A DNA stretch of 64,000 bases from Spirochaetales bacterium (lineage in GTDB: Bacteria > Spirochaetota > Spirochaetia > DAHUYW01): contig DAHUYW010000001.1 in assembly GCA_027306915.1 (NCBI GenBank), positions 182,418 through 246,417 on the forward strand, written 5' to 3'. A model generated the notes under the pieces. That model worked only from the letters and a program-made list of their open reading frames with translations. It did not search any database and was not told the origin of the DNA. A program made the translations under genes and the position numbers. Positions 4,974-63,438 of this stretch are shown here, one piece after another; position 1 is the stretch's first letter, and the number at the start of each line of letters is the position of its first letter.

Positions 4974-5045
4974 TGTCTGAGCCTCCTTGAACTGCAGGGG
5001 GAGGAACCAACGGTTCTTGAAATCCCCTGTTATCTTGCTTGGGGC

Positions 5046-5076
5046 AGTATAGCATGTTTTGTTAAGAACGTGTCAA
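5046..5076 (-). promoter_or_regulatory. Promoter of the porin-like gene
   Basis: On the minus strand a perfect TTGACA is followed after 19 bases by TATACT, in an AT-rich patch that contrasts with the surrounding GC-rich sequence. The untranslated leader would be about 65 bases. Confidence 0.6.
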
Positions 5077-5127
5077 GTTTTTTTTAAGCTTGGAGAATCT
5101 CGAAATTTGATGTCGGCGCTCCTTGAG

Positions 5128-5156
5128 TTGATGAATGGTCCACAAGGCGGTACTAT
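5128..5156 (+). promoter_or_regulatory. Promoter of the helical unknown gene
   Basis: TTGATG and TACTAT are separated by 17 bases, 30 bases upstream of the ATG at 5187. Confidence 0.5.
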
Positions 5157-5186
5157 TGACAAGATCACTGTGGAAAGGCTCGCCGT

Positions 5187-6131: not shown

Positions 6132-6153
6132 GCTCGCCGAGGAGAGCCTCGCC

Positions 6154-6182
6154 TTGACCCGGATGGCCGCCGGGCGTAGTAT
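6154..6182 (+). promoter_or_regulatory. Promoter of ilvE
   Basis: TTGACC and TAGTAT are separated by 17 bases; an AGGAG ribosome site and the ilvE ATG follow within 18 bases. Confidence 0.65.
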
Positions 6183-6199
6183 CTGGACAGGAGACAACA

Positions 6200-7294
6200 A
6201 TGCCGCAGGGATTCACCCTCTCGGTCTACCCGTGGGTCTATGTCGCTAAGTATAGAGAGGACGGCTCGTGGGCTGAGGACTTTCAGGAAAAACCGCACAA
6301 GACACCGCGCGAGGAGGAGGCCATGGCGCAGGCCGAGCTCGATGCCCTGCTCACGCGGCGCAATTCCTTTCCCGAGCTACCTATCGTCAACTATACGACG
6401 CAATACGGACTCGGATGCTTCGAGGGCCTCAAGGCATTTCCGCAGCGGGACGGCAGCCTCAAGCTCTTTCGACCGGATCAGAACGCCCGACGCTTCGCAA
6501 AGTCGATGGAGGGCTTGAAGATGCCCGTCTACCCGGAAAGGACCTTTGTGAGCGCGGTCCGTACCGTGGTAGCGAACAACCTCAAGCTCGGCTTTGCGCC
6601 GCGCTACGATTCGGCCTGGGAGCGGGACGACTTCGAGAGCGGCGACAGCGTCTACATCCGCCCCTTCACCTACGCCGAGCCCGCGATCGGGCTCGGCCTC
6701 AGCCACTATCCCTGGGTCGTCATGGTCACGACGCCGGTCGGGAGCTACTTCCGGCCGGGAAACTCGAAGGCGGTGACCGCCGATACCGTCCGCGCTACTC
6801 CCGGCGGAACCGGGTGGATAAAATGCGATGCCAACTACGTGATGGCCATCCTCGCGAAGAAGAAGGCCGAGACCGAAGGCTTCATGGAGGCCGTCTTCCT
6901 CGACGCCACCCACCGGAGGTACGTGGAGGAGGGATCGTCCTGCAACATCTTCTTCGTGCTCTCAAGCGGCAACCTCGTCACCCCTGACCTCGGCGACACG
7001 ATCCTACCCGGCGTAACGCGCGACAGCGTGCTCACGCTCGCCGCCGACCTTGGGATCAAGACCGAGGTGAGGCGAATCGCGATCGATGAGGTGATGGCGG
7101 ACGCACGCGAAGCCTTCGTCACGGGAACCGCCGCCGGGGTTACCTCACTCGAGTCGCTTACCCACAAGGGCAAGACCGCCGTGTTCTCCGCAGACGGGGC
7201 GCCCGGAGAGGTAGGGCGCACCCTCCAAAAGAACCTGAAAGGGATTCAGTACGGCGCCCTCCCCGATCGGCACGGGTGGATGACCGAAGTCTAG
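6200..7294 (+). CDS. ilvE: Branched-chain amino acid aminotransferase
   Basis: This 364-residue PLP enzyme interconverts leucine, isoleucine and valine with their 2-oxo acids in the cytoplasm. Class IV aminotransferase hallmarks are present: YGLGCFEGLKAF near residue 69, the expected PLP lysine K208 in GGTGWIKCDANYV, and YVEEGSSCNIFFV followed by LPGVTRDSV. Length matches BCAT enzymes of the eukaryote-like subgroup. The lysine context, WIKCDANY, departs from the usual AAKVGGNY, so substrate preference may be shifted. AGGAGAC precedes the ATG. It appears to be monocistronic; no other ilv or leu gene is in view. Confidence 0.92.
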   Translation: MPQGFTLSVYPWVYVAKYREDGSWAEDFQEKPHKTPREEEAMAQAELDALLTRRNSFPELPIVNYTTQYGLGCFEGLKAFPQRDGSLKLFRPDQNARRFAKSMEGLKMPVYPERTFVSAVRTVVANNLKLGFAPRYDSAWERDDFESGDSVYIRPFTYAEPAIGLGLSHYPWVVMVTTPVGSYFRPGNSKAVTADTVRATPGGTGWIKCDANYVMAILAKKKAETEGFMEAVFLDATHRRYVEEGSSCNIFFVLSSGNLVTPDLGDTILPGVTRDSVLTLAADLGIKTEVRRIAIDEVMADAREAFVTGTAAGVTSLESLTHKGKTAVFSADGAPGEVGRTLQKNLKGIQYGALPDRHGWMTEV

Positions 7295-7349
7295 GCTGGA
7301 CCTTCGAAGCCCGGGTTGCCCTGGACGCCGAAGTCGGCGCGTTTGATCG

Positions 7350-10300
7350 CTAGAACTCCTTCTTCGTCATGTCTTTCGGGAGATCATTGTAGATCTGAAG
7401 CTCGTAGCCCCGAATCGGAAAGAGGACGTATTTTGTGTTGATGAAGGCGAGGTTGATGGCCTCGGCCCGCTCCATGGTAGTCGGGTTTCGCGTGAGCTGG
7501 TCGAAGGACTCGCTCGATTTCGTCAGGTCGACAAGGGCCTGCGAGTACTTGGCGGGGTCGGCGCTCCGCCGGCCGATCTGGTTCATCGTCACCCCGAGAT
7601 TGTTGTAGACCTTCATGAGATTGTTGAGCAGCGCCCGATCTTCGGGGATCTCGTTGGGCTGGAAGTTGGTGATCTCGGACCGCTGCTGCTCGAGTGAGTT
7701 CAGCAGGTTGTCGTAGTAGCCCTCCGCGGCGAAAAAGTCGCCTCGCTTGAAGAGGGTGTTGGCGGTTGCATAGAGGAGAGCCGGATTCGTCGAGAAGTTC
7801 CCGGCCGCGACGTAGAATGCGAGGAGCGCCGAAGCATAGTCCCCGTTCCGATAGTAGATGTAGCCCTCTTTGTACTTCAGCTCAGGCGAGGTGTACCTAT
7901 TGGCCTCCGCCTTTTGATAGAGGCGAAGCGCATCGGCATAGTTGCCGCTTTCGTAGTAGTTGAGATCGCCGAGATCGTAATAGAGTCTGCCGAACTTAGC
8001 TTCCGGTCGAATCTGATCTTGGTCGAGGGCACTCTCGTAGAGGCTGATTCCTTTCACATAAGCCTGCTCCGAGTCAAGGTAGCGTCGCTGTCCGTAGAGG
8101 TTCTCCCCGATCAAGTCGTAGGTTTCGATCATGATGGCCAGGCGGTTCCGCGTGAGCGGCCCAGAGCGCTGGAGGAAGTAGAGGGTGTTTTGGAGCGCCT
8201 TCGACTCCTCGGTTGAGTCTCCCATCGCCTTGAAATAGCGGGCGAGGTTGAAATGAGTCTCGGGCAGGCTGTGATCGACCGAGAGCGCCCGCATGAGGAT
8301 GTCCCTCACGCTGCCAAGCTTTCCCTTGCCGATGAGGTAGCCGCCGAGCTCGGCGTAGGCGATCGGGTCCACCCGGATGCTCTTGTCTGCCTGAAAACGC
8401 TGCTCGAGACGTTCGACCTCCCGGAAGTTGTCGGTCTTGATGAAGAACCTGAGCATCCGAAAAAGGACCTCATTGCTCACCCCGTATTTCTGCAGGAGGA
8501 TCGCGTAGTCCCGTCGCGCGAGCTCGTATTTGCTCGGATCCACGCTTCCCCAGGCGAGATAGTTGTCTCCCGCCGCAAGAAGGCCCTCGCGATCGAACAT
8601 GTGCACCTTGAGGATGAGGTTCAGCAGCTCCTCCGCCTTGGCGTAGTTGCCGAGGATGGCCGACTCCATGCGGGCGTAGTCGAAGATCCCCTTCCGATCG
8701 CCGGGGTACGCCCGCAGCAGCGCGTCGTATTTCGCTGCGGCGAAGGCATACTGCTTCTTGTTGACGAACCCTTCGGCAAATCGATAGTACCAGCTCTTCA
8801 GACGCCACTCGAGAACTCCCCGGTCGAAGTAGTCGTTCGCCCGAATGAACTCGTTTCGCTGAATATCTCGGTAGCCGAGCTCGTAGAGCGTCAGGGCATG
8901 AAGCGGCCGGTAGATGAATCGGTAGCCGAGGAAGATCACCAGGGCGATCGCGAGGCCGGCGAGGATAAAGGTGCGCAGGATAGGGAGGATGTTCTGGCGG
9001 AAGCGATAGGCAAAGGTTCCTTTCTCCGCCTCGAACTCAATGCCGGTTCTCTTCGCGTAGGCCGTGGGAACAACAATGCGCCGGCCGAGTATCCGGCCCG
9101 TAAGAGCGGCGATCTCGCGGGCGCTGGCCCCAGAGACAAGGAGGTCGACGAGCGCCCGCAACTGCGCTCCTTCGAGCCGTCGTTCCCCGATCAGCTCCTC
9201 TACCGCAAGCCGGAGGTTACGGGGAAGGGAAGACAGTGTCGCGCGCAGCGCGCGAAAATCGCGGTCAGAGAGCTGAAAGGGCGCCGCCGGCCCCCGCGCG
9301 CCGGGGCGTTCTCCCCCTTCCCCAATGGCCTGGGCGGGATTGAGGGCCTCCTCGTCGGATGGCTCCTCGCCGAGGCCCAGCTGCTCGTTGATGTCGCCGA
9401 GCCCGAACTCGTCGGCTTCCGGTTCCTCGGGCGGCGGCTCGGTCGGTGAAGCTGCCCCGGCGGCCGTGCCTCCGCCCGAGGCGGCGACCTTCTGCCCGTC
9501 TTGCTCCGCGGATTCCGGCGGCACCTCGGACAGGGAGAACTCGTCGCCCAATTGGAGGTCCCCCAGGGAAGAGAGCTCGCCGCTGAAACCGGCGCTCTCC
9601 TCTACGCCTCCCAGGTCGATCTCGCCGAAATCGGCCTCCGGCATCTCGAAGTCCTCGCCGGTCGGTGCTTCGGCGCCCGGCGAAACGCCGGCCAAGATCC
9701 GCGCGCCGGTCTCCTCCGCGCCTTCGACCTCGGCTGAGATTCCGGAGCCCGCCTCTCCCTCCTCGAGCTCCCCCGACGGCGGACTTTCGGCGAAGGCCCC
9801 GAGATCGCCAACGTCGCCGAGTCCTGCGAAAAGCTCCTCTTCGGGCGCCTCGGGCTCCTCGGGCGCTGCCGGCTCGGTCGAGGCTCCCGCGGCGGGCTCC
9901 GCCTCTTCGGGTGATTCCGGCTCGGCGACAGGCTCGGCTGCGAAGCTGTCGATATCCGGAAGCTGCTCGCCGAAGGATCCAGAAGCGGCTTCGGCCTCTT
10001 GGGACAGCCTTTCATCGGTGTCCGCCGCTTCGCCTATCTCCGACGGCTCGGCCTCCCGCGGAGCCTCGCCCCCTTCCGGCGCAGCGGCGGCCTCGCCTGC
10101 AAAATCGATCGCACGGGCCGATTCTTCCCCAAAAGCCTCGGAGGGCGCCTCTTCCTCGCCGGCAAGCTCCTCGGGGGAGGGAACGGTAAAGAAGAGCTCT
10201 TCATCGCTCCCCGGCTCAATCCGCGGGGGGGATTCCGGCGCCTCCTCGAGGCCGGCGGGGATTGCGGTAAGCTCCGACTCCTCTGCCTCGTCTTCGCTTC

Positions 10301-50785: not shown

Positions 50786-51107
50786 CTCGACTCACCATCA
50801 TACCGCCGCGTGCGGTGACCCACGCTTCCCCTCGACGGCGCTCCTCCCTAAGTGACTGAAGGGGCGGCGCCCTTGCGGCCGTGAAAAGCTACTAGCGAGG
50901 ACGCGTTCGGTCAAGCTTATCCTTCGGCCGGGCGACGGCCGCCTTCCCTGCTGTTTCAGGCCTTTCACGGCGGGAGACCGTGACCGGAGCAACACGTGTG
51001 TATTCAGAAAATTCAATACTGTTGTTGATTTTGTTGATCATCGGCCGTTCCGTTATTAATATTGTTAAGGTATCAATCGACATGTGGGCTTTCCGGGAGG
51101 GCTGATG
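50786..51107. other. Intergenic region between smr and the DUF4097 gene
   Basis: This 322-base gap is GC-rich on the smr side, with a distant nine-base inverted pair GCCGTGAAA and TTTCACGGC about 76 bases apart, and turns AT-rich near 51010-51070, where a promoter for the DUF4097 gene lies. I see no ORF with a ribosome site and no RNA gene in it. Confidence 0.5.
51034..51062 (+). promoter_or_regulatory. Promoter of the DUF4097 gene
   Basis: TTGATC and TAATAT are 17 bases apart in an AT-rich patch, 45 bases before the start. Confidence 0.6.
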
Positions 51108-52274
51108 ATGAGCGAAGAACGCGCGAAGATTCTCAAGCTCCTGAAAGAGGGCAGGATAACTGTCGAGGAGGCGGAGCTCCTGCTCGACGCCCTCGAAGAG
51201 GGCAATGAAGGCGAGGCCACCGCCCATGCGGCGAGGGAGCAAACCGGAGGCGAGGAACGCGGAAGTGGATGCCGCGACTGGTGGGGTTCGCACGATTGGG
51301 GCGAGAAATGGGGAAAGGAGTGGCGCGGCCCGTGGCGCGACTTCGACTTTTCGAGATTTCAAACTGGCTTTGAAGGTGCCTTTCGCGGCATGGAGCAGTC
51401 CATCCGTGACGCGTTCAAGAACTTCTCGAACATCAACTTCGAGGTCGAGCTCGGACGCCTCTTCGGTCGGGAGCATGCCGAAGTCGAGCGACACCTGGTG
51501 TTCCCTGCGGCCGGGATCCGCGCGCTTTTTCTCAAGAATGCCTGGGGCGACGCAGAGATCGTCGCTTCCGAGGGGAAAGAGGTCAAAATCGCCGCGAAGA
51601 TCGCCGCGTGGGGCCACGATTCCGCTACTGCGTCTGCGACTGCGTCGGGGATCGAGATCACCCAGCTGCGCGAGGGCGACCGCCTCGTCGTCCAGCATCG
51701 TCCGGCGAACGGATCGGGATCCGCGCGCTACAAGGTCGACTTCGAGATTGCGGTCCCGCGCGACATGGAGGTCGAGCTCAAGGGAATGAGCGGGAACCTC
51801 CGCCTTTCGGGAACCCGCGGCAAGACACGGCTTCTCACGTTGTCGGGCGACATTCGCCTAAGGGGTGTGGCGGGCGAGATTGTCGCCGACTCCAAGAGCG
51901 GCGACATCGAAGCGGAACGCTGCACAGGCAGTCTGGAAGCCTCAACGGTGAGCGGGGAGATCGCCATTCTCGATCACCATGGGCGGATCGTCGCGGGGAG
52001 AACGGTGAGGGGCGACATCCGGGCGAACCTCACGTTAGAAGACGGAGCGGCAGTCGATCTTCGCACGGTGCGGGGGGACATCCACCTGAAGGTTCCTGCG
52101 AAATCGGCTGTGGAGATAGCGGCGGAGACCGTCGGCGGCGAGATCGATTGTGCCCTTCCCGTCCTTTTCGACGTGCAGGGTCCGCGGAAGATTCACGGGG
52201 TCCTGAACCGAGCCGATGGAAAGATCGGACTTTCCACAAAATCGGGGAGCATCTCGATTCGCTCGCTCGACTGA
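51108..52274 (+). CDS. DUF4097-type beta-helix protein with an N-terminal SHOCT-like hairpin
   Basis: The 388-residue product begins with a short helical hairpin (SEERAKILKLLKEGRITVEEAELLLDAL) of the kind found in YvlB-type proteins. A tryptophan-rich segment follows, then from about residue 140 a repetitive right-handed beta-solenoid of the DUF4097 type, with units such as MSGNLRLSGTRGKTRLLTLSGDIRLRG and KSGDIEAERCTGSLEASTVSGEI. No signal peptide. Such proteins often accompany anti-sigma or cell-envelope stress systems; none is in view here. A tandem ATG makes the start uncertain by one codon. Confidence 0.78.
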   Translation: MSEERAKILKLLKEGRITVEEAELLLDALEEGNEGEATAHAAREQTGGEERGSGCRDWWGSHDWGEKWGKEWRGPWRDFDFSRFQTGFEGAFRGMEQSIRDAFKNFSNINFEVELGRLFGREHAEVERHLVFPAAGIRALFLKNAWGDAEIVASEGKEVKIAAKIAAWGHDSATASATASGIEITQLREGDRLVVQHRPANGSGSARYKVDFEIAVPRDMEVELKGMSGNLRLSGTRGKTRLLTLSGDIRLRGVAGEIVADSKSGDIEAERCTGSLEASTVSGEIAILDHHGRIVAGRTVRGDIRANLTLEDGAAVDLRTVRGDIHLKVPAKSAVEIAAETVGGEIDCALPVLFDVQGPRKIHGVLNRADGKIGLSTKSGSISIRSLD

Positions 52275-52275
52275 G

Positions 52276-53619
52276 CTACCTGGCTCCGCCGGTGAGATCG
52301 GCGATCATGATGCGCGAGTTGCGTGCGCGATCGTAGCTTCGACGCTTTTCTTCGGGGAGCATGGAGAGCTCGCCGGCAACGAAACCGAGCTGGAGGAACC
52401 AGTCCGAGGCGCCCGTCGTGAGAAGAAAGAGCGTCTTCACGCCGTCTCGCCGCGCCTTTTCCATGAGATAGCTGACGATCCGGTTCCCGATGCCGAGCTG
52501 CACAAACCCATGGTCGACAGCCACTGCAGCGATCTCGCCAAAGTCACCGGGGTAGAGATGAAGCGCGCCGCATCCGTGTGCGGTTCCGTCGAGCTCATAG
52601 ACGACATAGTCCCGCCCTTCGCGTTCAAGGGTGCGCTCATCGCGGGGAACCAGGGCGCCGCTTCGAATGAAGGGCTGCATGATGCGGAGGACCTCAGGGA
52701 TGTCCTCGGTCCGCATCGGACGGATCCGCTCGAACTCATTGGCATAGACCATCGTTCCCGAGCCGAGACTTGTGAAGACCTCCTTCAGCACTACCCCCTC
52801 GATGCGACCATCCACGATATGCACGCGCTTTACCCCACCCCGGCAGGTGGCATAGGCGTGGGAGAGCAGCTCAAACCAGGGAGCCCCCTCGGCTCCGCTT
52901 CGGTTCAGCTCGAGGAAGGCAGCAGCCTGATCGAGGTCGAGTCGCGAGATCCGCCCGGCCGCATCTCGCGTCACGCTCTCGGGCAGTAGGTAGCCGGTCT
53001 CCTCGATCCCCCCGGAGTCCGTCACGAAGAAAAGCTTCTCGGCCTTGAGCTCGATGCTCAGGGAGCGGGCGAGCTCGTTCGACGACAGGTTATAGGGATC
53101 GCCTCGGGCATTCCAACCGATGCACGGTAGGATCGGCACCAACCCCTCGGAAAGCGCACGCTCGACCAGATCGACCCTTATCTTGTCAACCGTGCCGCTG
53201 TTTTGGTAGTCGACGCCGTCGACAACACCCAGGCTTCGAGCGCGCACCCAGTTCCCGATGACCGCGCTGACGCTCGAGCCCGAGAGGAGAGTCATGACCC
53301 TCGTCGCTGCGTCGAATGCGGCCATCTTTATGAACGGCATAGCCTCGGGGCTCGAGATGCGGACCGTCTTTACCGAGCTGCTCTTGATCCCGTAGACGGT
53401 AAGGATATCGTCGATTCGCTGCCGCGCTCCCGCGACCAGGACGATCCGGATTCCGAGGCGATGGAGACGGACCAGGTCTCGGATCAGGAGAGGAAAGAGC
53501 GGGTGATCGACAATCGCATAGTCGATTTTGAAGACAAAGAGACTCCCTTTGAAGCGCTCGAGGTAGCTGAAAACTTCGCGGATCTGATCTACCGCATCGG
53601 TGGCACTTTCGCCGTCCAT
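52276..53619 (-). CDS. argA: N-acetylglutamate synthase (amino-acid kinase plus GNAT)
   Basis: The 447-residue protein catalyses the first step of arginine synthesis, acetylating glutamate. Residues 1-290 are an amino-acid-kinase fold used for arginine feedback (RIVLVAGARQRIDDIL; GLVPILPCIGWNARGDPYNLSS). Residues 300-447 are a GNAT domain (IRPMRTEDIPEVLRIMQPFI; VAVDHGFVQLGIGNRIVSYLME), where the usual Q/RxxGxG/A loop reads QLGIGNR. Layout and length match ArgA. It follows the MFS gene by six bases, implying co-transcription. Confidence 0.9.
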   Translation of the reverse strand: MDGESATDAVDQIREVFSYLERFKGSLFVFKIDYAIVDHPLFPLLIRDLVRLHRLGIRIVLVAGARQRIDDILTVYGIKSSSVKTVRISSPEAMPFIKMAAFDAATRVMTLLSGSSVSAVIGNWVRARSLGVVDGVDYQNSGTVDKIRVDLVERALSEGLVPILPCIGWNARGDPYNLSSNELARSLSIELKAEKLFFVTDSGGIEETGYLLPESVTRDAAGRISRLDLDQAAAFLELNRSGAEGAPWFELLSHAYATCRGGVKRVHIVDGRIEGVVLKEVFTSLGSGTMVYANEFERIRPMRTEDIPEVLRIMQPFIRSGALVPRDERTLEREGRDYVVYELDGTAHGCGALHLYPGDFGEIAAVAVDHGFVQLGIGNRIVSYLMEKARRDGVKTLFLLTTGASDWFLQLGFVAGELSMLPEEKRRSYDRARNSRIMIADLTGGAR

Positions 53620-53625
53620 AGGCCG

Positions 53626-54846
53626 TCAGCGCATCTCCTCCGTCATCGACCCGTCGTGCGTTCGGCGTACCTGCCGTAGGATCAGGTAGGCAAATGCCGT
53701 GAGGGCGAGTCCCATCGCCACATAGACGACGAAGCCTGATCTTATTCCGAAATGCTGCGAAACCCCGGACATCAGAAGCGGAAACAGGAACATCCCGACT
53801 CCTCCGCCGGTTGCCGCAAATCCAACTGCGACGCTCTGGCTGTGGCGGAAGTGGCGTCCAAGCAGGTTCATCACGAGAGGGTAGAAACCCGAGCAGCCGA
53901 GGCTCGCAAGGAAAAAGAAGATGCCTCCCGCCACCGCACGCCGCATCAGGACTGCGAGGAAGATCGAAAGGGTGTAGAGCAGGGCGAGGGCAACCAGGGT
54001 CGCCGCCTGGCGGGTCCCGCGCGCGATGAGTGAAACCGAGAGCCTGCCGATAAGCATACCCACCCAGAAGAGCGAGACCATGAAGGCGCCGGTCGAGGCA
54101 GGAGTCCCAAAGACTTTCACGAAGTACTCGGATATCCAGTTGGAAACACCGACCTCCAAGCCGACGTACAGAAGAAGGGCAAAAAAGGAAAAGAGGAGCA
54201 GCGGCAAGCCCAGGAGGGAGCGAAGCCTCGGCCTCGCCTGCTCTTCGGTGGAGCCCGTACCCTCGATTCGTCGGAAGGGAAGGAGAGCCAAGAGCACACC
54301 GATCACCAAGACGAGAAAGGCAATCCCGCGATAGACCCCCTGCCACGGCAGCTCATGCGCGACGATGAGCCCGATCGCCAGGGGACCTACGATCGCCCCC
54401 ACCGAGAAGGCGGAGTGGACGAACATCATCAGGTGGCTATCCCCTTCGCGCTCCATTCGTGCAATGCTCGTGTTGACTACGACCTCGACTCCCCCCTGCC
54501 CGACGCCGATGAAGAAGTTGAGGACAAGGTTCAGGGCTACGGCAGGCGCCGAGCCGAAGAAGAAGAGGCTCACTGCCTCGATCGCAAGCCCGAGCGCTAT
54601 TACGGGCTTCAGCCCGAGGCGCTGCACGAGAAGCCCTGAGACGAGCGTCGAAGTGAAGTAGCCGACCGAGTTCGCCGCGAGGACGACGCCGGCGGCGGTA
54701 TAGCTCCAGTGAAAATCCGAGAGGATCCGCGGGAGAAGGGCGCCGACGACAATGAGGCTCACCCCGAAGCTGCCAAAGGCTGCGAGAAGCGGCCAGAAGA
54801 GGATTCGATACCTGGGCTCGATAAAGCGAGCCGGAGAGAACTGCAT
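53626..54846 (-). CDS. Major facilitator superfamily transporter
   Basis: The 406-residue protein has about twelve membrane helices, such as ILFWPLLAAFGSFGVSLIVVGALLP and FAATGGGVGMFLFPLLM, and a central charged loop near residue 205. The first-half motif A is altered to GLLVQRLGLKPV. It resembles the FucP/YfkF-type sugar or fosmidomycin-related exporters, with no certain substrate. GAGGGGGAAGG precedes the ATG. It is linked with argA, so transport of an arginine-related compound is conceivable but unproven. Confidence 0.85.
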   Translation of the reverse strand: MQFSPARFIEPRYRILFWPLLAAFGSFGVSLIVVGALLPRILSDFHWSYTAAGVVLAANSVGYFTSTLVSGLLVQRLGLKPVIALGLAIEAVSLFFFGSAPAVALNLVLNFFIGVGQGGVEVVVNTSIARMEREGDSHLMMFVHSAFSVGAIVGPLAIGLIVAHELPWQGVYRGIAFLVLVIGVLLALLPFRRIEGTGSTEEQARPRLRSLLGLPLLLFSFFALLLYVGLEVGVSNWISEYFVKVFGTPASTGAFMVSLFWVGMLIGRLSVSLIARGTRQAATLVALALLYTLSIFLAVLMRRAVAGGIFFFLASLGCSGFYPLVMNLLGRHFRHSQSVAVGFAATGGGVGMFLFPLLMSGVSQHFGIRSGFVVYVAMGLALTAFAYLILRQVRRTHDGSMTEEMR

Positions 54847-54876: not shown

Positions 54877-56004
54877 TCAATGCCGCTCTCGGGCCACGTA
54901 CGTGCTTGCCATTTCAACCGAGCTGACTTCGATGAAACCATAGGCCTGAGACTCAAAGATTCCCGCCGAATGGGTCGCGTCGATGACCGTGTCGGTAAGG
55001 GTGCTTGGGACGATGAGATCGCTCATCTCGCGGGAGTGGGAGGACGCCGCCTCCTCCTCCGCAGCAAATCCCCCGAAGCGGAGCTTCGACAGAGTCGCCC
55101 CGCCCGCCCCAACGTCCATCGCCGCGCGCACGAGCCCCTGCGCTCTTCCTTCTCGGCAGACGACTGTGCAGTTGGAGAGCTCGGTGAGTATCCTGCGCCT
55201 GCGGTCCCGGGGGCGGACGGGAAGCTCCCGCCGCCGCCAGCCGGCGCTCCCGGTAAGCTCGTCGATCGCAGCGACGATCTGCTCGACGCTCGCGACGTGG
55301 GCCGCCTCGCCGCGGCGCAGGCGAGTGTTGATGATGCCGAAGCGGATGGGATAGAGATAGATGAATCCCCTCCCCGGATGGTCGAGCCGCGCCGTGTCGA
55401 TGACCAGACTCATCGCCTGGAGGGCATCCTGTCGGTCCACCACGAAGGAGACCACCTCTTTGTCGACGGGGATTGCAATTCTCAGCAGCCCAAGCCGGTC
55501 CCGGATACCCATCCCCTGGCCGTAGGTGACGATCGGGACCGAAAAGCCCACATCGAGGATCGCCCGCGCGAGTCGATTTCCTTCACCCCGCTGCACGATG
55601 CAGCAGATCCCGCTGTACCCGGTCTGTGCGGGCAGCTTCACCTCGGCGACCTTTTCCAGACGCTGCTTGTCGAAGGGGATCGGGGAAGAGCGGATGACGC
55701 TTACCTCTTCGCTGTAGACGCTTCCCCGGCCAGGCAGGGTAAGATCTGCGCGTGAGGCGATCAGCCCGACGATCCGCCGCTCAAGCGATAGTGGTACGTA
55801 GAAGCGAAAGACGTCGACCGGGTTCTCGTCGAGGTCGGTGCTGGACCGGATACCGAGGAGCCCTTTGCGCGAGCGCAGGACCACAGCCCTTCCCGACTGG
55901 ATTGACAACTCCGGTATGGCGAGCTCTCGGAGGGTCTCGGTGATGAGCGGAGAGATGTTGCGGTAGACGTAGCAGGTGATCTTTGCGAGGCGAGCCTTGA
56001 CCAA
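54877..56004 (-). CDS. Triple PII-like domain protein paired with DUF1538
   Basis: I start this 375-residue product at a TTG with GGAGGAG five bases upstream, two bases after the DUF1538 stop. It contains three successive PII/ferredoxin-like modules at about residues 8-105, 127-225 and 268-370. Modules 1 and 2 close with a PII-type C-terminal strand, LPGRGSVYSEEV and HPGRGFIYLYPI, and module 3 with a related YGFIEVSSV. Module 2 keeps the GEGNRLARAILDVGFSVPIVTYG pattern, but classic uridylylation-loop tyrosines and adenylate-binding residues are not evident. It is probably a sensor that controls the DUF1538 protein. Confidence 0.66.
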   Translation of the reverse strand: MVKARLAKITCYVYRNISPLITETLRELAIPELSIQSGRAVVLRSRKGLLGIRSSTDLDENPVDVFRFYVPLSLERRIVGLIASRADLTLPGRGSVYSEEVSVIRSSPIPFDKQRLEKVAEVKLPAQTGYSGICCIVQRGEGNRLARAILDVGFSVPIVTYGQGMGIRDRLGLLRIAIPVDKEVVSFVVDRQDALQAMSLVIDTARLDHPGRGFIYLYPIRFGIINTRLRRGEAAHVASVEQIVAAIDELTGSAGWRRRELPVRPRDRRRRILTELSNCTVVCREGRAQGLVRAAMDVGAGGATLSKLRFGGFAAEEEAASSHSREMSDLIVPSTLTDTVIDATHSAGIFESQAYGFIEVSSVEMASTYVARERH

Positions 56005-56006
56005 AG

Positions 56007-58076
56007 CTACTCCTCCGCGTACTTGAGCAGCCGGGACTGGCGCCGGGTGATGAAGAGCCCCACCGCAAGAACCGTCATCGCCGGGAAGACCGACGCCAGC
56101 GCGAGGATCCCGAAGCCGTCCACGGCACCAACCTTCTGACTTACCGCGAGCCCGGTGCTCAAGACGAGAGGAACGGTGACGGGCCCCGTCGTCACCCCTG
56201 CGCTGTCCCAAGCTATGGTTACGAACTCCTCGGTCGACAGGACGGTGATGCCGAGAAGGAGCACGTAGGAGGGGGCGAGCAGCCAGATGAGGGGTATGTG
56301 CCAGATGACCATCGCGAAGCCAAAGACCATCCCCGTACCCACTCCAACGGCCACGGTCCGTATCAGCAGCCTTCGCTTGAATATGCCGACGGTGATCTCC
56401 TCGAGGGTGATCCCGAGGGCGGAGAGACTGGGCTCGGCAATCGTCGCGCCGTATCCCATCACGAAGGCGAACAGGAGCACGACAATATACCCGGCGAGGC
56501 CGTAGCCGAACAGCGGGCCCTTGAGCGGCTGGAAGGTGTACTGCCGTGTTTGCGCGTCAAAGTCATGCGGCACAAAGGGCAGCGCCTGAAAGCTGGTTCC
56601 GCGTCCGAGGTAGAAGAACTGACTCTTCTGACCGCTTGAATCGATTGCGGTCTCGACCACCGAAGGATCGAAGTTCCGGATCACCTGAAGCTCAGTGCCG
56701 ACCTGAATCTCGGTGAACGAAGCGGGAAGGCTGCCGCCGGTCTCACTGCCGAGCCGGGCGAGACCGAGCTCCATCCCGATGTTGAAGAGGAACATACCGA
56801 GGAGGGCTATGACGACCCCGAAGATTATCTCGTCCCACCGTTCGATCCGCTCGCGGAGGAATACTATCAACGTGAGAAAAAGAAGCAGGCACAAGGGGAG
56901 AATCGCTTTCAGCGATCCTCCGAGGTTGCGGACAACCGTCGCCGAGACGTCGAGGGAGTCGGCCGAGGAAGAGCCGAGCGCGCGCGCACCAACCTCGCCG
57001 CGGACCTCCGAGCGCTCGCTCGGGGTAAACGTCGAGTCGAGCCACGTCGCGAAAGCGCTGTCGCTCCCGAAAATCCCGTAGACGAGGGAGCGATCGTGCG
57101 ACAACCTCGCCACGAAGGAAAGGAGGAGCCTGCGGTCCCCCCCGAAGAGCGAAAGACTCTCCTCGGGTCCGAGCTTCGAAAGCACGTAACCGCGCTCCCA
57201 GCTCCTGCTCGGAAAGAGGGCCGCAACCTGCGGGCGCTCCGCGGAGGCGAGAAAGGCGGCTCTCGTCATCGGCGCGGGAACGAAGGGCCGCAGGGCAAAA
57301 CCGAGGATGAGAACGGTGAGGATAGGAAGCGCCGACGCCAAGGCCACGACGCCGAGGCCGGAGAGCTGGCGGTCGGCGCGGCCGGTGATGCGCGAGATGC
57401 CGATTCCAAGGGCCAGGACCAGCGGCACCGTCACCGGGCCGGTCGTTATCGCGCCCGAGTCCCACGCGAGCCCTGCGACGTGGCGGAGGTCCGCATCGAA
57501 CCATGCCGCTCCCGTGAGAAGGAGGAGAATCGGAACGATGACGTAGAGAATGGGCTTGATCGACCAGTTGTAGATAAAGCGCGCCATTGCGAGTGCGACC
57601 GCGAAACCCACTCCCGCTCCGATTGCCGCGACGAGTAGGTTGGAGAAGCGGGTCAACATCGCGAACAGGAGCGGGGCCTGCCAGGCGGTAACCGTCTCGC
57701 CCGCCCCTATTAGGAAGCCTATCGCCGGCTCGGCGAGGGTTGCCCCTACCCCTAGGACGAACGAGAAGAGAAGGATGGGAACGAGGGTGGTCTTCTCGGG
57801 AAGCCTCACCCCGCACAGCTCCCCAAGCGGCATGATCCCGACGAGGAGCCCTTCGAGGAAGAAAGCAAGCCCGATCGTCACGATGATGATTCCGCCGGTG
57901 ATCACCGCCGCCCCGGCGATCGGCACACCCAGCACGAGAAGCTGGAAAAGAACCATGTACAGGACAATGAGGGCTACGGCGCGGACCTGGGCCCGAAGCC
58001 TGCCCCCGACATACGGAGCGATCATCGAGAGGGTCTGCTTCAATCCGATGTGGAGCCGCTGCCGGTTGTGGTGCAT
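56007..58076 (-). CDS. DUF1538 membrane protein with internal duplication
   Basis: The 689-residue product has at least 14 membrane helices in two homologous halves. The repeats carry GVGATLAEPAIGF with WDSGAITTGPVTVPLVLALG (residues 109-224) and GYGATIAEPSLSA with WDSAGVTTGPVTVPLVLSTG (541-642). This is the inverted or tandem duplicate pattern of a transporter. A soluble loop with Ser/Asp-rich sequence lies between the halves (270-385). DUF1538 has no established substrate. GGGAGGA lies just before the chosen ATG. It heads a two-gene operon with the triple PII-like gene. Confidence 0.82.
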   Translation of the reverse strand: MHHNRQRLHIGLKQTLSMIAPYVGGRLRAQVRAVALIVLYMVLFQLLVLGVPIAGAAVITGGIIIVTIGLAFFLEGLLVGIMPLGELCGVRLPEKTTLVPILLFSFVLGVGATLAEPAIGFLIGAGETVTAWQAPLLFAMLTRFSNLLVAAIGAGVGFAVALAMARFIYNWSIKPILYVIVPILLLLTGAAWFDADLRHVAGLAWDSGAITTGPVTVPLVLALGIGISRITGRADRQLSGLGVVALASALPILTVLILGFALRPFVPAPMTRAAFLASAERPQVAALFPSRSWERGYVLSKLGPEESLSLFGGDRRLLLSFVARLSHDRSLVYGIFGSDSAFATWLDSTFTPSERSEVRGEVGARALGSSSADSLDVSATVVRNLGGSLKAILPLCLLLFLTLIVFLRERIERWDEIIFGVVIALLGMFLFNIGMELGLARLGSETGGSLPASFTEIQVGTELQVIRNFDPSVVETAIDSSGQKSQFFYLGRGTSFQALPFVPHDFDAQTRQYTFQPLKGPLFGYGLAGYIVVLLFAFVMGYGATIAEPSLSALGITLEEITVGIFKRRLLIRTVAVGVGTGMVFGFAMVIWHIPLIWLLAPSYVLLLGITVLSTEEFVTIAWDSAGVTTGPVTVPLVLSTGLAVSQKVGAVDGFGILALASVFPAMTVLAVGLFITRRQSRLLKYAEE

Positions 58077-58182: not shown

Positions 58183-59445
58183 TCAAGGTCTCGAAAGAAA
58201 GTCAATGAAGCGGGACAACCCCTCGGCGAGGAGATCCTCCCGGAGCAGAAAGCTCAAGACTACATGAAAGGAGTCGGCCGCCTCCTCGAACCCGTAGAAA
58301 TAGCCGGGATGGAGGTAGACTAGACGCTCACGAAGCAGTCCAAGGGCAAACTCCTCGTCGTCGCCTCCGGGGAGGGCGATGCGGACCGGGCAATGAATCC
58401 CTCCCCGCGGCGGGAGGAGCGAGACCGATCCGCGGTCCGGCGCTCCTCCGGCCGTCGCATCGAAAGCCGGAGGCCGCGAAGCCACGACGCCGGCCCCCGC
58501 GTTCACTGCGGCGACCAGCACGTCGCGCTTTCGCGCAAGGTCCGCGACCATTCCTTTGGTGAACTTCCCTGCCTTCGCGAAGAGGGCGGGAAGGATGAAC
58601 TGGGCGAGGCTGCTGCAGTTAAGAAAGATGTCGTTTGCCACCTCCAGCCGCTCGACCGGCTCCGCGATCCGCTTTCGGTCGCCCGAGACCGCAATCCACC
58701 CGAGCTTCAGGTCGGGGCTCGCAAACATCTTCGATATACCGTTCAGGGTATAGACCGGCAGCGGAAGCCCAAGCGCCGCCGGCCGGGGAAGCCTGAAGGG
58801 CTCGGAAGGAGAAACCGAAGGAGGCGTTTCCCCCGCAGGCGCATAGGGCGCGTAGAGAAACTCGCTGAAGACCTCGTCGGAGATGATGGCTGCCCCGTAG
58901 CGCTCGCAAAGCTCGGCCATCCCCTCGAGCTCCTCGCGGGAGGCGACCTGCCCGGTGGGGTTGTTCGGCGAAATGACGACGACAAATCGGGTTCGCGCAT
59001 CGATCACGGCGGCAAGCGACGCAAGATCGATGCGGTAATCGCGGTCCATCCGGTAGAAGCGAACCTCGAGCCGGTTGAACTCCGCAAGGAACTCGAAAAG
59101 GGGGTAGGTCGGCGAAGGGAGGACAAGGTTGTCACCGGGGGAGGCCAGATTGTTGAACAGAAGATTGTAGCTCTCGGAGGAGGAAGCGGTGAGGAGGATG
59201 TCATCGGGGGAGATCGCGACGCCCTGCGCGGCGTAGTAGGCGCTTATGCTTTCACGGGCAGTGATGCTTCCCTTGGGGTCGGGAGCATATATCCGCGTGC
59301 GAACGTACTCTTCCATGAGAGGCAGGAGCAGCTCGTCGGGAAGCCGGTAGCCGTTCTTGTGAAAATTGGTGTCCACCAGATCGATGATCTGCGCCCCGCG
59401 CGCGTGAAGCGTATCGAGCTCTTGCTGCAGGCGATTCTTCTCCAT
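58183..59445 (-). CDS. Class I/II PLP-dependent aminotransferase
   Basis: The 420-residue enzyme has the PLP-binding lysine K239 in YTLNGISKMFASPDLKLGW, the NPTG motif at N162 in ISPNNPTGQVAS, and the aspartate D190 in IISDEVFSEF. The family includes aspartate- and kynurenine-type aminotransferases; the substrate is not settled. An unusual proline-rich insertion (GETPPSVSPSEPFRLPRP) sits between NPTG and the lysine. It lies just 70 bases before the aldehyde dehydrogenase on the same strand, so the two may act on one amino acid. Confidence 0.85.
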   Translation of the reverse strand: MEKNRLQQELDTLHARGAQIIDLVDTNFHKNGYRLPDELLLPLMEEYVRTRIYAPDPKGSITARESISAYYAAQGVAISPDDILLTASSSESYNLLFNNLASPGDNLVLPSPTYPLFEFLAEFNRLEVRFYRMDRDYRIDLASLAAVIDARTRFVVVISPNNPTGQVASREELEGMAELCERYGAAIISDEVFSEFLYAPYAPAGETPPSVSPSEPFRLPRPAALGLPLPVYTLNGISKMFASPDLKLGWIAVSGDRKRIAEPVERLEVANDIFLNCSSLAQFILPALFAKAGKFTKGMVADLARKRDVLVAAVNAGAGVVASRPPAFDATAGGAPDRGSVSLLPPRGGIHCPVRIALPGGDDEEFALGLLRERLVYLHPGYFYGFEEAADSFHVVLSFLLREDLLAEGLSRFIDFLSRP

Positions 59446-59514
59446 AGATTAGAAGACCATTCGCGCGGCGACGTGCCAACCGGTGGGCCGCCCTGCGCGC
59501 AGGCTTTGCCCCTC

Positions 59515-60882
59515 CTACTTTACGTAGATCGTCTTGACGTTTACGAACTCCCGGATGCCGAAGGTCGAGAGCTCCCGGCCGTAGCCGCTCTCCTTGATGC
59601 CACCGAACGGTAGCCGCGGATCGGACTTCACGAATGCGTTCACAAAGACGTTGCCCGCCTCGAGCCCGCGCGCGGCGATCTCCTCGCCTCGGCGGATGTC
59701 GCGCGTAAACACCGCCGCACCGAGACCATAGGGCGAATCATTGGCGATGCGAATCGCCTCGGTCTCGTCCCGCGCAGGGATGATGGCTGCGACCGGCCCG
59801 AAGGTCTCCTCCTCGTAGACGGGCATCCCGGGCCCGACCTCGGTCAGAACCGTCGGCGGATAGAAGTAGCCCGGCCCCGACGGAAGCTCCCCGCCCAAGA
59901 GGAGACGCGCTCCCTGTTTCGTGCTTTCGGTCACCTGGCGGTGAAGGGTTTCGCGCAGGTCGCTTCGTGCAAGCGGCCCCACGTCGGTCGACGGATCTCG
60001 CGGGTCGCCAACCACAGCCCTTCGCATCCGATCGACGAAGAGCCGCTCGAACTCCTCGCGCACCGAATCGACCACGATGAAGCGCTTGGCTGCGATGCAG
60101 CTCTGGCCGGAGTTGATGAGCCTGCTCGCGGCGCAGGCGGACGCGGCGGCCTCGACATCGGCGTCAGCCAAGATCAGGTAGGGATCGCTCCCCCCGAGCT
60201 CGAGAACGGACCTCTTCAGAGCGCGCCCCGCGGCCTCGGCAACCGCCCTCCCCGCTCTCCTGCTTCCGGTGACCGTGACCGCCGCAACACGCCGATCGCC
60301 GCTCACAAGCTCGACCTGCTCGATGTCGACCGTGAGCACCCGAAAGAGAGCTTCCGGGGCTCCCGCTTCGCGAAGCAGCCCTTCGCTCGCGAGGGCGCAG
60401 CCCAAGACATTCGGGGCGTGCTTCAGGAGAACCGCGTTCCCGGCCATGAGGGCCGGGGCGACGAACCGGAAGACCTGCCAGAGGGGAAAGTTCCACGGCA
60501 TGACGGCAAGGATCGGACCGAGCGGCTTGAAGGTAACGTAGCTCCTCGTGGCGTCGGTCGCTATCGCCTCGTCGGCGAGCATGGCTCGCGCGTGGACGGC
60601 ATAGTGCTCGCAGGCCCACGCGCACTTTTCGGCCTCGGCCCGACCCTGCGCGACGGGCTTCCCCATCTCAAGCGCCATCAGCTCGGCGAGCGTCGCGCTT
60701 CGACTGCGCAGCAAGGCCGCAACGGCGTTGAGGAGGGCCGCACGCGTATCGAAATCGCGCTCGCGCCAGGCGAGCCAGGCGGAGTAGGCAGCATCGAGGG
60801 CGCCTGCCACCTCCCGGTCGCTCATCTGCGGGTAGGAGCGAAGCGGCTCCTCGGTTGTCGGATTGATGGACTGAAAGGGCAT
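59515..60882 (-). CDS. NAD(P)-dependent aldehyde dehydrogenase (succinate-semialdehyde type)
   Basis: The 455-residue enzyme oxidises an aldehyde to an acid. The catalytic C262 lies in INSGQSCIAAKRFIV and the glutamate E228 in SVLELGGSDPYLIL; PWNFPLWQVFRFVAP and VTGSRRAGRAVAEAAGR bind cofactor. The family resembles YneI/SSADH. The proximity of an aminotransferase gene downstream suggests a two-step deamination and oxidation, such as GABA to succinate, although no decarboxylase is present. GGAGGAG precedes the ATG. Confidence 0.88.
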   Translation of the reverse strand: MPFQSINPTTEEPLRSYPQMSDREVAGALDAAYSAWLAWRERDFDTRAALLNAVAALLRSRSATLAELMALEMGKPVAQGRAEAEKCAWACEHYAVHARAMLADEAIATDATRSYVTFKPLGPILAVMPWNFPLWQVFRFVAPALMAGNAVLLKHAPNVLGCALASEGLLREAGAPEALFRVLTVDIEQVELVSGDRRVAAVTVTGSRRAGRAVAEAAGRALKRSVLELGGSDPYLILADADVEAAASACAASRLINSGQSCIAAKRFIVVDSVREEFERLFVDRMRRAVVGDPRDPSTDVGPLARSDLRETLHRQVTESTKQGARLLLGGELPSGPGYFYPPTVLTEVGPGMPVYEEETFGPVAAIIPARDETEAIRIANDSPYGLGAAVFTRDIRRGEEIAARGLEAGNVFVNAFVKSDPRLPFGGIKESGYGRELSTFGIREFVNVKTIYVK

Positions 60883-61017
60883 AGGCTCCTCCGAAAAGCA
60901 GCTTAAGAATCCTGCAACCGGCCCTGTTTGTAAAGGATGCCACCCGTCGGCGATTGCGAGCGGGTGAACCGGGTAGCGTACCCCGCGTCGAGGGTTGCCT
61001 GCGCATCCTGCGGCACG

Positions 61018-61046
61018 TTGACTTTGCCGATCAGTTACTCTATCTT
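61018..61046 (+). promoter_or_regulatory. Promoter of moxR, predicted near-leaderless
   Basis: TTGACT and TATCTT are 17 bases apart, and the -10 ends nine bases before the ATG without a ribosome site. Confidence 0.5.
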
Positions 61047-61055
61047 TCCATTCAT

Positions 61056-62114
61056 ATGGAAGAGACGCTCCAGTCGCGGGCCACGGGGCAACCGGCGACG
61101 GATGGTTCCGGTCACGCCGAAACGCTGACCCGGCAGGTAGCCGCGGTGGCTGTGGCGGTTTCGCGCCTCATTGAAAACATCAAATCGGTCATTTACATCG
61201 ACAAAAGGAAGCTCGAGTATATCATCGCCTCGAAGATAGCCGGCGGGCACGTCATCCTCGCCGATTCGCACGGGGTAGGAAAGACATCCCTCGCCCGCGC
61301 GCTGGCCGGCTCGATCTCATGGGAGAGCGAGGATCTCTACAGCGACAGCGTGAAGGTGGAGAAGTTCAGCCGCATCCAGTGCACGGTCGATCTCCTTCCC
61401 CAGGATATCCTCGGTTACAACCGCTTCAGCAATACGAGCCAGGAGATGATCTTCAACAAGGGACCGATCTTCGCTCACTTCGTCCTGTGCGACGAGATAA
61501 ATCTACTCACCCCAAAGACGCAAGGGAGCTTTCTCCAGGCGATGGAGGAACAGACTGTCACCATTGAGGGCAAGACCTACCGGCTCCCCGATCCCTTCTT
61601 CATCATCGCGACGATGAATCTGAAGGGGGTGCACCTTTTTCCCCTGCCTGCCCCGCAGCTTGACCGCTTCATGATCGAGCTCTCGATGGGCTATCCGGAC
61701 GCGGAAGACGAGGGCTCCATCATTAAACAGCATGGCCGCAGTGACGCTTGGTCGGAGTTCCGGCCGGTCGTAGCCTCCCACACGATGACCGAATGGCAGC
61801 GGTTCGTCGACCAGATAACGATCCATGAGGAGATAGTCGAGTACATCGTCGCCTGCGTGCGGGAGACCCGCAACCACCCCGATGTCGCCGTCGGTGGAAG
61901 CCCGCGAGCCGGGGTGAAGGTCTCGCGGATGGCGCGCGCTTTGGCCCTGATCCGCGGTGCCACGTATGTGACGATCGACCTGGTGAAAGAGATCTTCCCC
62001 ACGGCGGTCTCCCACCGCCTGATAATGCGCGATCCTTCCCTTTCGGCCGAGCAGACGACGAAGGCGATTCTCGACATGGTGCCGGTGGACGTCGCTCGCA
62101 GGGCAAAGCGATAG
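61056..62114 (+). CDS. MoxR-family AAA+ ATPase
   Basis: The 352-residue product has Walker A in ILADSHGVGKTSLARALAG, Walker B in FVLCDEINLLTPKTQGSFLQAMEE, sensor 1 in FIIATMN and a sensor-2 region in the helical lid (GVKVSRMARALALIRGA). MoxR ATPases act as chaperones with vWA-domain partners. I start at the ATG of EETLQSRATG; the longer frame covers the promoter. It is 25 bases upstream of a DUF58 gene, the usual pairing. Confidence 0.9.
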   Translation: MEETLQSRATGQPATDGSGHAETLTRQVAAVAVAVSRLIENIKSVIYIDKRKLEYIIASKIAGGHVILADSHGVGKTSLARALAGSISWESEDLYSDSVKVEKFSRIQCTVDLLPQDILGYNRFSNTSQEMIFNKGPIFAHFVLCDEINLLTPKTQGSFLQAMEEQTVTIEGKTYRLPDPFFIIATMNLKGVHLFPLPAPQLDRFMIELSMGYPDAEDEGSIIKQHGRSDAWSEFRPVVASHTMTEWQRFVDQITIHEEIVEYIVACVRETRNHPDVAVGGSPRAGVKVSRMARALALIRGATYVTIDLVKEIFPTAVSHRLIMRDPSLSAEQTTKAILDMVPVDVARRAKR

Positions 62115-62139
62115 CACTGTTGCGCCGCGGGAGCGCCGC

Positions 62140-63438
62140 ATGAAAGGCTTCAGATCGGCAGTCCGTACGATTCGCTACTATTTCCCCTTGGCTCCCGCCG
62201 GAAGCGTGCTCTGCTTCTTCGCGGTGCTGCTTCTCGCGAACAGCTTCCAGACGCGCGATCCCTATCAGATCGTCCTCTCGGTCACCGCCCTTTTCGTGCT
62301 TGCCATGCTCGCCTTCCTTGCACGGATCCAGGCCGACCAGCTTTCGAAATACCCCATCCAGTGGGACTCGAGCCAGCCGCTCGTGGCCGGCTCCGAGCCC
62401 TCAGTGCAGCGACTCACGGGGGTCGTCGCGCGCCCTTTCCTAGGCTTCCGGCTCCACTTCGCGGTGCAGGGTTGGCTCTCCGTCGGAAGGCGGGCCTCCC
62501 TGTTTCTCTCACAGGAGACGGTGGCAAGCTCCGCCTCGCCCGGAGGTGAGGTCCCCGTGCAGCTGGTCTTCCCCCTGTGCGGTCTCTTTCGTGCCGAAGG
62601 GATCCTCAAGGTCGGGGATATCTTTGGATTGACGCGGGCTCAGTTCGGCGACTCCTACGAGCGCCACCTAGCCGTCATTCCGGCCGTCTTTCCCGAGGAA
62701 ATAAGCGTGAGGGTGGAGGCAACCCAGCGCTCCGAAGAAAAACAGAGTCAGATGAACTCCGATGAGGAAAAGTACTACATGCGGGAGTATGCTCCCGGCG
62801 ATCGCTTTCGCGACATCAATTGGAAAAGCTCGAGCCGACTCTCTCAGCTGTTCACGCGAATCGCTCCAATTGCGCAGGAGCAGACCAAGATCATCGCCGT
62901 CGAGTTTCGCAACTACCGCGAAGATGCGCCCGAAAGTCTTGCGTCCGTCATGCACCTGAATCACCTGAAGAGCTGGACCTTGAGCTTCCTGCGCGTGGTA
63001 AAGGAATCGAATCCGGACTTCCAATTCGTCGTCATGTCCGGCAGGGGCTCCGCCCGCCTCGAGAGCAAAGACGACATCGAGCGATTTGCTTCCGAGCTTG
63101 CGGAGATCACCTATCAAAGCGAGCCGGTCGAAGAGGTCGCTCCGCCGCCCACCGACGAGATATACCTGTTCACCACGCCCTACGACCGGCAGCTGCCCGC
63201 GCTTCTTGCAAGCTATCCTCAGAAGCGCATCAACCTTTTTCGGACGGTAGGCTCGCGGGCGCCGGGCTCACACCCGCGCCGGAGCCTTGCTCTTTTTCAC
63301 TTCCGGGAGCAGTTACCAATTCCTGGTTTGTGGGTTTTCCGAAGAGACCTGGCCCCAGAGCAGCCGGGCATCGATCACTCCCGAGCCCGTATTCTCGGCG
63401 AAGAGGCGGTAGAGGCTCGGGTATTCGCGTTCGCCTGA
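62140..63438 (+). CDS. DUF58-domain membrane-anchored protein, partner of MoxR
   Basis: The 432-residue product has two N-terminal membrane helices (AGSVLCFFAVLLLANSF; IVLSVTALFVLAMLAFLA), a beta domain and the DUF58 signature YYMREYAPGDRFRDINWKSSSR near residue 208, followed by a vWA-like segment. DUF58 proteins commonly partner MoxR ATPases. The last 55 residues after KRINLFRTV lose the family pattern and are arginine- and proline-rich, so the C-terminus may be changed or the frame may have slipped; no alternative frame reads better. Confidence 0.83.
   Translation: MKGFRSAVRTIRYYFPLAPAGSVLCFFAVLLLANSFQTRDPYQIVLSVTALFVLAMLAFLARIQADQLSKYPIQWDSSQPLVAGSEPSVQRLTGVVARPFLGFRLHFAVQGWLSVGRRASLFLSQETVASSASPGGEVPVQLVFPLCGLFRAEGILKVGDIFGLTRAQFGDSYERHLAVIPAVFPEEISVRVEATQRSEEKQSQMNSDEEKYYMREYAPGDRFRDINWKSSSRLSQLFTRIAPIAQEQTKIIAVEFRNYREDAPESLASVMHLNHLKSWTLSFLRVVKESNPDFQFVVMSGRGSARLESKDDIERFASELAEITYQSEPVEEVAPPPTDEIYLFTTPYDRQLPALLASYPQKRINLFRTVGSRAPGSHPRRSLALFHFREQLPIPGLWVFRRDLAPEQPGIDHSRARILGEEAVEARVFAFA

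Follow-up and report, generated by a model that had tools for sequence, protein, structure and literature searches.

Why should a membrane transporter gene be followed, almost without a gap, by a gene for a chain of three PII-like modules? The two genes lie in a 64,000-nucleotide stretch of a Spirochaetales bacterium (assembly GCA_027306915.1, contig DAHUYW010000001.1, positions 182,418 to 246,417), hereafter the window, and encode a DUF1538 fusion protein and a triple PII-like protein. An original prediction, made from the letters of this stretch, proposed a new transporter/sensor system in which the three modules give a one-chain trimer. It now seems reasonably probable that the pair is a regulated monovalent cation/proton antiporter, with the triple PII-like protein as its cytosolic regulatory subunit in the form of a pseudo-trimer and the T-loop of module 2 as the gating element. 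A more specific version is put forward tentatively. In it, the gate of a monovalent cation/proton antiporter of unsolved fold would be an asymmetric pseudo-trimer of covalently joined PII modules, only one of which has a working T-loop, and this arrangement would stand at one end of a series of module numbers.

The membrane protein is internally duplicated, as had been proposed. Pfam DUF1538 (PF07556) matches it twice (E 3.5e-100, 334.1 bits against a cut-off of 22.6) and the two halves carry paired motifs, GATLAEP/GATIAEP and WDSGAITTGPVTVP/WDSAGVTTGPVTVP. The family is a known one: UmpAB of Halomonas zhaodongensis, a two-gene DUF1538 pair, was reported in 2017 as a Na+(Li+,K+)/H+ antiporter (PMC5484666), and DUF1538 is listed among the key pH-adaptation families in a machine-learning study (PMC13255231). 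UmpAB and the window protein have in common two homologous DUF1538 halves and conserved acidic residues; three highly conserved ones are reported for the family (PMC5484666), and those of the window protein are invariant and lie in the paired motifs. Unlike the two separate UmpAB subunits, the halves are fused here in a 689-aa chain with extra parts, and the scores remain below the equivalog cut-offs of NCBIfam UmpA (E 1.3e-53, 181.8 bits against 490) and UmpB (E 1.5e-40, best on residues 529-673, 139.2 bits against 500). The likely binding sites for the cation and protons are the invariant acidic motifs, xAEP and WDSxxxTTG, that occur in both halves; by analogy with UmpAB, the window protein may be expected to perform antiport. 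Its AlphaFold2 model is confident (pLDDT 86.7, pTM 0.87). No solved structural relative turned up in the searches made.

The 375-aa protein itself matches no Pfam or NCBIfam model, the cut-off of P-II (PF00543) included. Its reading frame is nonetheless real and widespread, since 401 homologues were found at E <= 0.01 among 7996 scored candidates. Its PII nature follows from three lines of evidence: P-II is matched at E <= 0.01 by 20 of the 120 aligned members (the window protein and 119 homologues), a profile built from 25 family sequences picks out archaeal GlnK1 among PDB entries (E 4.1e-4), and the predicted fold agrees. A few triple proteins among the homologues are already annotated 'P-II family nitrogen regulator'. 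The TTG start lies two bases after the DUF1538 stop, exactly as first described, a spacing that suggests translational coupling.

The linkage of the two genes is conserved. A search with the triple protein (one genome per species) gave 96 relatives, and 80 loci were retained. Of these, 75 have a DUF1538 frame immediately upstream in the same orientation; in the other five (L010, L037, L051, L056 and L071) the PII frame begins at a contig end. Loci anchored on PII cannot by themselves show that DUF1538 goes with PII; the reverse search, anchored on DUF1538, is the fairer test. Among 200 genomes from the phylum that includes G013 (Burkholderiaceae), 84 contain DUF1538; among 198 from the phylum that includes G001 (Spirochaetales) there are 41, one of which scores below the cut-off, and the 14 control genomes yielded none. 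Of the 137 DUF1538 systems fetched, 130 have a PII-like frame directly downstream, namely 76/82 from the G013 phylum, 40/40 from the Spirochaetes, 4/4 from plasmid records and 10/11 added later from the G013 phylum (PII-likeness at E <= 1e-3, relaxed to 1e-2 for these 11). The seven systems without such a frame are L232, L239 (one of two systems), L265, L266, L279, L289 and L325; L289 ends 62 bases before a contig end and L325 is a fragment.

These counts cover the listed places only; additional DUF1538 places exist in some genomes. In the G001 phylum, 37 of the 41 matching genomes were fetched, three are L001-L003 (counted as PII-anchored) and the remaining one, a sub-threshold fragment (G267), was dropped; the 84 of the G013 phylum yielded 72, then 11 more, the last one (G013) being L061. 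The PII-anchored and DUF1538-anchored sets have at least three contigs in common, recognised by their equal lengths (L018/L211, L049/L199 and L052/L201). Over both sets, with gene starts placed by a simple first-start rule, PII begins -10 to +24 bases from the DUF1538 stop in 167 of 196 systems, most commonly with a four-base overlap (70 of 196). PII beside DUF1538 is thus a general feature of the family, often in the form of a single-module PII, and is not peculiar to the triple form. Of the original claim of a new transporter/sensor system, the pairing remains, but the transporter family is not new, and annotation pipelines already name such neighbours. Plasmid records of Methylocystis, Chelativorans and Vescimonas show a 'P-II family nitrogen regulator' after DUF1538 with the same linkage and order, although there the PII consists of a single module (122 aa, 112 aa) or of two modules (224 aa), not three, and the transporter is two-gene or short fused. 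In the open-access papers found to name DUF1538 (subscription papers and preprints being outside the scope), PII proteins are not mentioned; the spelling 'P-II' is absent, and 'PII' occurs in a single paper, as three letters of a peptide motif. Within the same scope, and as far as the sources were examined, no description of the DUF1538-PII pairing was found in work on PII with antiporters or transporters, or on tandem PII.

The three modules postulated for the downstream protein are borne out to different degrees. Its predicted secondary structure consists of three beta-alpha-beta-beta-alpha-beta units, and AlphaFold2 places three ferredoxin-like modules in a well-defined arrangement (pTM 0.88 over 375 residues). 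Module 2 of the model matches GlnK and has the PII (ferredoxin-like, GlnK-type) fold, while modules 1 and 3 are supported as PII-like by profile and secondary structure. Profile comparison relates module 1 to module 2 (E 3e-14) and module 2 to module 3 (E 1e-10); that of modules 1 and 3 is weak (E 2e-5, probability 52%). Modules 1, 2 and 3 each match the single-module P-II proteins adjoining DUF1538 elsewhere (E 2e-17, 2e-18 and 1e-16), the best of 60 shuffled or reversed controls reaching E 0.0025 (probability 12%). Neither of the two outcomes named beforehand as refuting the original prediction, modules without a PII-like structure or an unconserved linkage, was obtained.

Conservation is distributed unequally. 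Over the 120 proteins the mean column entropy of module 1 is 2.20 bits, that of module 2 is 1.42 and that of module 3 is 2.07; in the T-loop regions the values, in the same order, are 2.24, 0.80 and 2.06 bits. G164, G166, R168, G172 and K182 are invariant in the loop of module 2, of which residues 171-180 are the least confident part of the triple-protein model (mean pLDDT 51). A loop both flexible and nearly invariant is what one would expect of a docking T-loop. It looks as if only module 2 has kept a strongly conserved, flexible T-loop, in an asymmetric one-chain PII assembly. In canonical PII the T-loop tyrosine is the uridylylation site and the lysine of the B-loop (GDGK) contacts ATP. 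Aligned with E. coli GlnK, the module 2 loop is about five residues shorter and has no conserved tyrosine, and the B-loop keeps its glycines (G211, G213) while F214, 99% Phe, takes the lysine position. Canonical uridylylation and canonical ATP/2-oxoglutarate binding are therefore unsupported.

Table 1. Features of the DUF1538-PII locus and of the genes in line behind it (positions in the window)
Feature	Position	Strand	Remark
DUF1538 fusion protein, UmpA-UmpB-like, 689 aa, predicted cation/proton antiporter	56007..58076	-	ATG start at 58076, stop included (stop codon 56007-56009)
N-terminal half, residues 27-260	57297..57998	-	best match NCBIfam UmpA (E 1.3e-53), under its cut-off
GATLAEP motif, half 1, residues 111-117	57726..57746	-	E116 identical in 104/104 aligned DUF1538 fusions
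WDSGAITTGPVTVP motif, half 1, residues 205-218	57423..57464	-	D206 identical in 104/104 aligned fusions
C-terminal DUF1538 half, residues 397-675	56052..56888	-	Pfam
GATIAEP motif, half 2, residues 543-549	56430..56450	-	E548 identical in 104/104 aligned fusions
WDSAGVTTGPVTVP motif, half 2, residues 623-636	56169..56210	-	D624 in 99% of 104 aligned fusions
Two-base gap, DUF1538 stop to PII start	56005..56006	-	sequence
Triple PII-like protein, 375 aa	54877..56004	-	TTG start at 56004, stop included
PII-like module 1, residues 6-108	55681..55989	-	T-region variable, B-loop PGRG conserved
PII-like module 2, residues 129-235	55300..55620	-	most conserved module; GlnK-like fold
Module 2 T-loop region, residues 160-186	55447..55527	-	consensus FGxGMGLRDKLGLLRITIPxEKEV; highly conserved, low pLDDT
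Module 2 B-loop region, residues 205-217	55354..55392	-	LDxPG[KR]GFIY; alignment
PII-like module 3, residues 272-372	54889..55191	-	T- and B-loop regions variable; GAxGAT and ARE motifs conserved
MFS transporter gene	53626-54846	-	in line after PII gene
AA_kinase-GNAT protein, N-acetylglutamate-synthase (NAGS) type	52276-53619	-	after MFS gene

The pair resembles GlnK-AmtB and SbtB-SbtA in joining a PII-fold protein to a membrane transporter, and shares with the former a conserved gene linkage; the T-loop, which enters the cytoplasmic side of the transporter in SbtA-SbtB (PMC8352866) and AmtB-GlnK (PMC10710835), is the likely contact here too. In the known cases a homotrimer sits on a trimeric transporter, whereas here three unequal modules share one chain, with one conserved T-loop of another sequence, on a predicted antiporter of unsolved fold. 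Another PII-type protein is known from Geobacter (PII-NG, GSU2134). It is not known to be a three-module protein, and its neighbour CzcABC belongs to another transporter family and handles divalent metals. It is encoded beside a proton-driven cation antiporter (PMC7726332), as the triple protein is predicted to be.

Starting from what was computed (the two genes, the PII-like fold of module 2, the homology of modules 1-3 to PF00543 proteins, the linkage and the asymmetric conservation), we infer the interaction with the transporter, the ligand, the stoichiometry, and the effect and direction of regulation as follows. The membrane protein would be a one-chain version of the two-subunit antiporter UmpAB, and the triple PII its cytosolic regulatory subunit, made in step with it through the close coupling of the genes. 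The three diverged modules would pack as a covalent pseudo-trimer. Module 2 would be the working module: its T-loop (GxGxRDKLGLLRI) would dock into the cytoplasmic face of the transporter and either block or free the pathway, in the manner of GlnK on AmtB and of SbtB on SbtA. The T-regions of modules 1 and 3 vary freely; these two modules may complete the assembly and the ligand sites between modules. The signal is probably an adenine nucleotide, bound otherwise than in canonical PII. If the pairing of this widespread antiporter-like family with one-, two- or three-module PII proteins is functional, it would couple pH and Na+/K+ balance to energy or nucleotide state, and having all modules in one chain would allow the role of each in PII signalling to be mutated separately. 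A built-in triple-PII regulator would represent a familiar type of control in an unusual, asymmetric form.

The relatives offer a series of architectures, in which the PII part beside DUF1538 has one module, two separate genes, or two or three fused modules. PII lengths form three clusters, 111-134 aa (76 proteins), 184-266 aa (30) and 355-398 aa (87), and three proteins fall outside them. When only the first PII gene of each system is counted, two-gene transporters of the G013 sample have a one-module PII in 57 of the 58 PII-bearing cases, the other (L218) being a start-codon artefact. Fused transporters of up to 545 aa go with two fused modules in 22 of 23 cases in the Spirochaete sample and with one module in 4/4 in the G013 sample. 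Those above 625 aa go with three modules in 11 of 13 Spirochaete cases (of the exceptions, L195 is truncated at a contig end and L198 carries a PII of 242 aa) and in 65 of 66 cases of the PII-anchored set (L079 is likewise cut), and with one module in 4/4 of the G013 sample. These four, and seven of the eight one-module G013 fusions of 546-625 aa, have a second, separate PII-like gene beside the first (11 of 12 one-module long G013 fusions overall, L254 being the exception), as do 10 of the 11 systems fetched later (their transporter frames measure about 570-622 aa, apart from a 425-aa one close to a contig end). A fused DUF1538 followed by two separate PII-like genes is seen in L315-L324, L237, L241, L250, L272, L280, L283-L285, L287, L288 and L290. 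The first gene of the pair is module-2-like in 11/11 tested, its loop often such as GSGVRERLGxLGV, and the second is divergent, with a Pfam match in 1/10. A conserved module-2-like protein and a very divergent second one possibly make up a heteromeric PII.

On a tree of the C-terminal DUF1538 half (FastTree, which gave a long-branch warning), module number changes six times; with shuffled labels the mean is 78.3 changes. By inspection, two of these changes are artefacts (L218 and L286); faulty class labels were found for L218 (start placed too far upstream, really one module), L079 and L195 (contig-end cuts) and L286 (masked letters). Fusions accompanied by separate PII genes branch among those with three modules. 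Module number thus follows the transporter tree, which indicates that regulator and transporter evolved together. The common element is one conserved core module with up to two divergent companions, and this favours an asymmetric over a symmetric assembly. If so, the series would show the passage from a symmetric PII sensor to an asymmetric subunit, suited to a transporter that is not necessarily a trimer.

An alternative model assumes that the modules are beads on a string joining other chains in larger PII rings, or that modules 1 and 3 have some other function. We regard this as unlikely, yet worth serious consideration. Several observations speak for it and against a one-chain trimer: two-module relatives exist and clash with a simple three-module rule, the similarity of modules 1 and 3 is weak, and the stretch between modules 2 and 3 (residues 231-270) is modelled with low confidence (block means 60-70). 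Against the beads stands the pTM of the whole chain, which means that the placement of the modules is predicted with confidence. This supports a fixed arrangement of the three modules, for which a pseudo-trimer geometry is proposed. The one-chain trimer, as first proposed, accordingly stays plausible, related transporters using separate PII genes, but as an assembly of unequal modules which the two-module relatives do not fit. L198 holds two divergent DUF1538-PII systems side by side (4440-6575 and 6714-8873); the PII of one is triple, that of the other (242 aa) is similar to modules 1 and 2, with module 3 missing.

It is about equally doubtful that the DUF1538 fusions carry another substrate or are channels, with PII sensing the substrate concerned or what is made from it. 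Against this, the invariant acidic motifs of the family are retained in both halves, and relatives often have ion-channel and CBS genes nearby. Of the 76 G013-sample systems with PII, 41 have a CBS-domain-like frame downstream of it (one member called by Pfam, the rest by similarity to that member); the frame starts -144 to +4 bases from the PII end in 39 of them, 330 bases on in L262, and belongs to a longer overlapping frame in L269. These small CBS proteins follow a single-module PII at 41 loci among L212-L282 (e.g. L238:3714-4133) and are possibly a second nucleotide sensor of the transporter. For 15 distinct systems an ion-channel-like gene lies no more than about 200 bases away; in 12 it is on the same strand. 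Of eight such neighbours scanned, seven combine Ion_trans with a cyclic-nucleotide-binding domain and one is a sulfate permease with such a domain; Ion_trans examples lie in L206-L210, in L052 (downstream of the triple PII, same strand) and in L204 (opposite strand). Both kinds of neighbour fit monovalent-cation balance and nucleotide sensing.

Still less probable is a role for the PII-like protein as an obligatory subunit, structural or metal-sensing (CutA-like), instead of an allosteric regulator. UmpAB antiport was obtained in E. coli from the two membrane genes alone, with no PII gene supplied (PMC5484666), which argues for PII as a modulator and not part of the pump; the paper makes no mention of PII. 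PII is also absent from seven of the 137 DUF1538 systems.

Canonical PII controls NAG kinase, and the MFS and NAGS-type genes come next on the same strand of the window, but it is highly improbable that the triple protein is a general nitrogen/carbon signalling PII for such targets, with DUF1538 merely sharing its expression, since these neighbours are not conserved whereas DUF1538 is present in all 75 testable triple-PII loci. The MFS gene recurs (E <= 1e-10) only in the closest relative, L001, whose contig ends before the NAGS position; a NAGS-like gene recurs at the same threshold in 7 of 202 loci, none a triple-PII locus. Elsewhere in the window, genes for a class I aminotransferase and an aldehyde dehydrogenase lie upstream of the pair on its strand (58183-60882), followed on the plus strand by an AAA_3 (MoxR-type) ATPase gene and then a DUF58 protein gene (60954-63438). 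A DUF4097 protein with an N-terminal SHOCT-like domain is encoded on the plus strand at 51084-52274.

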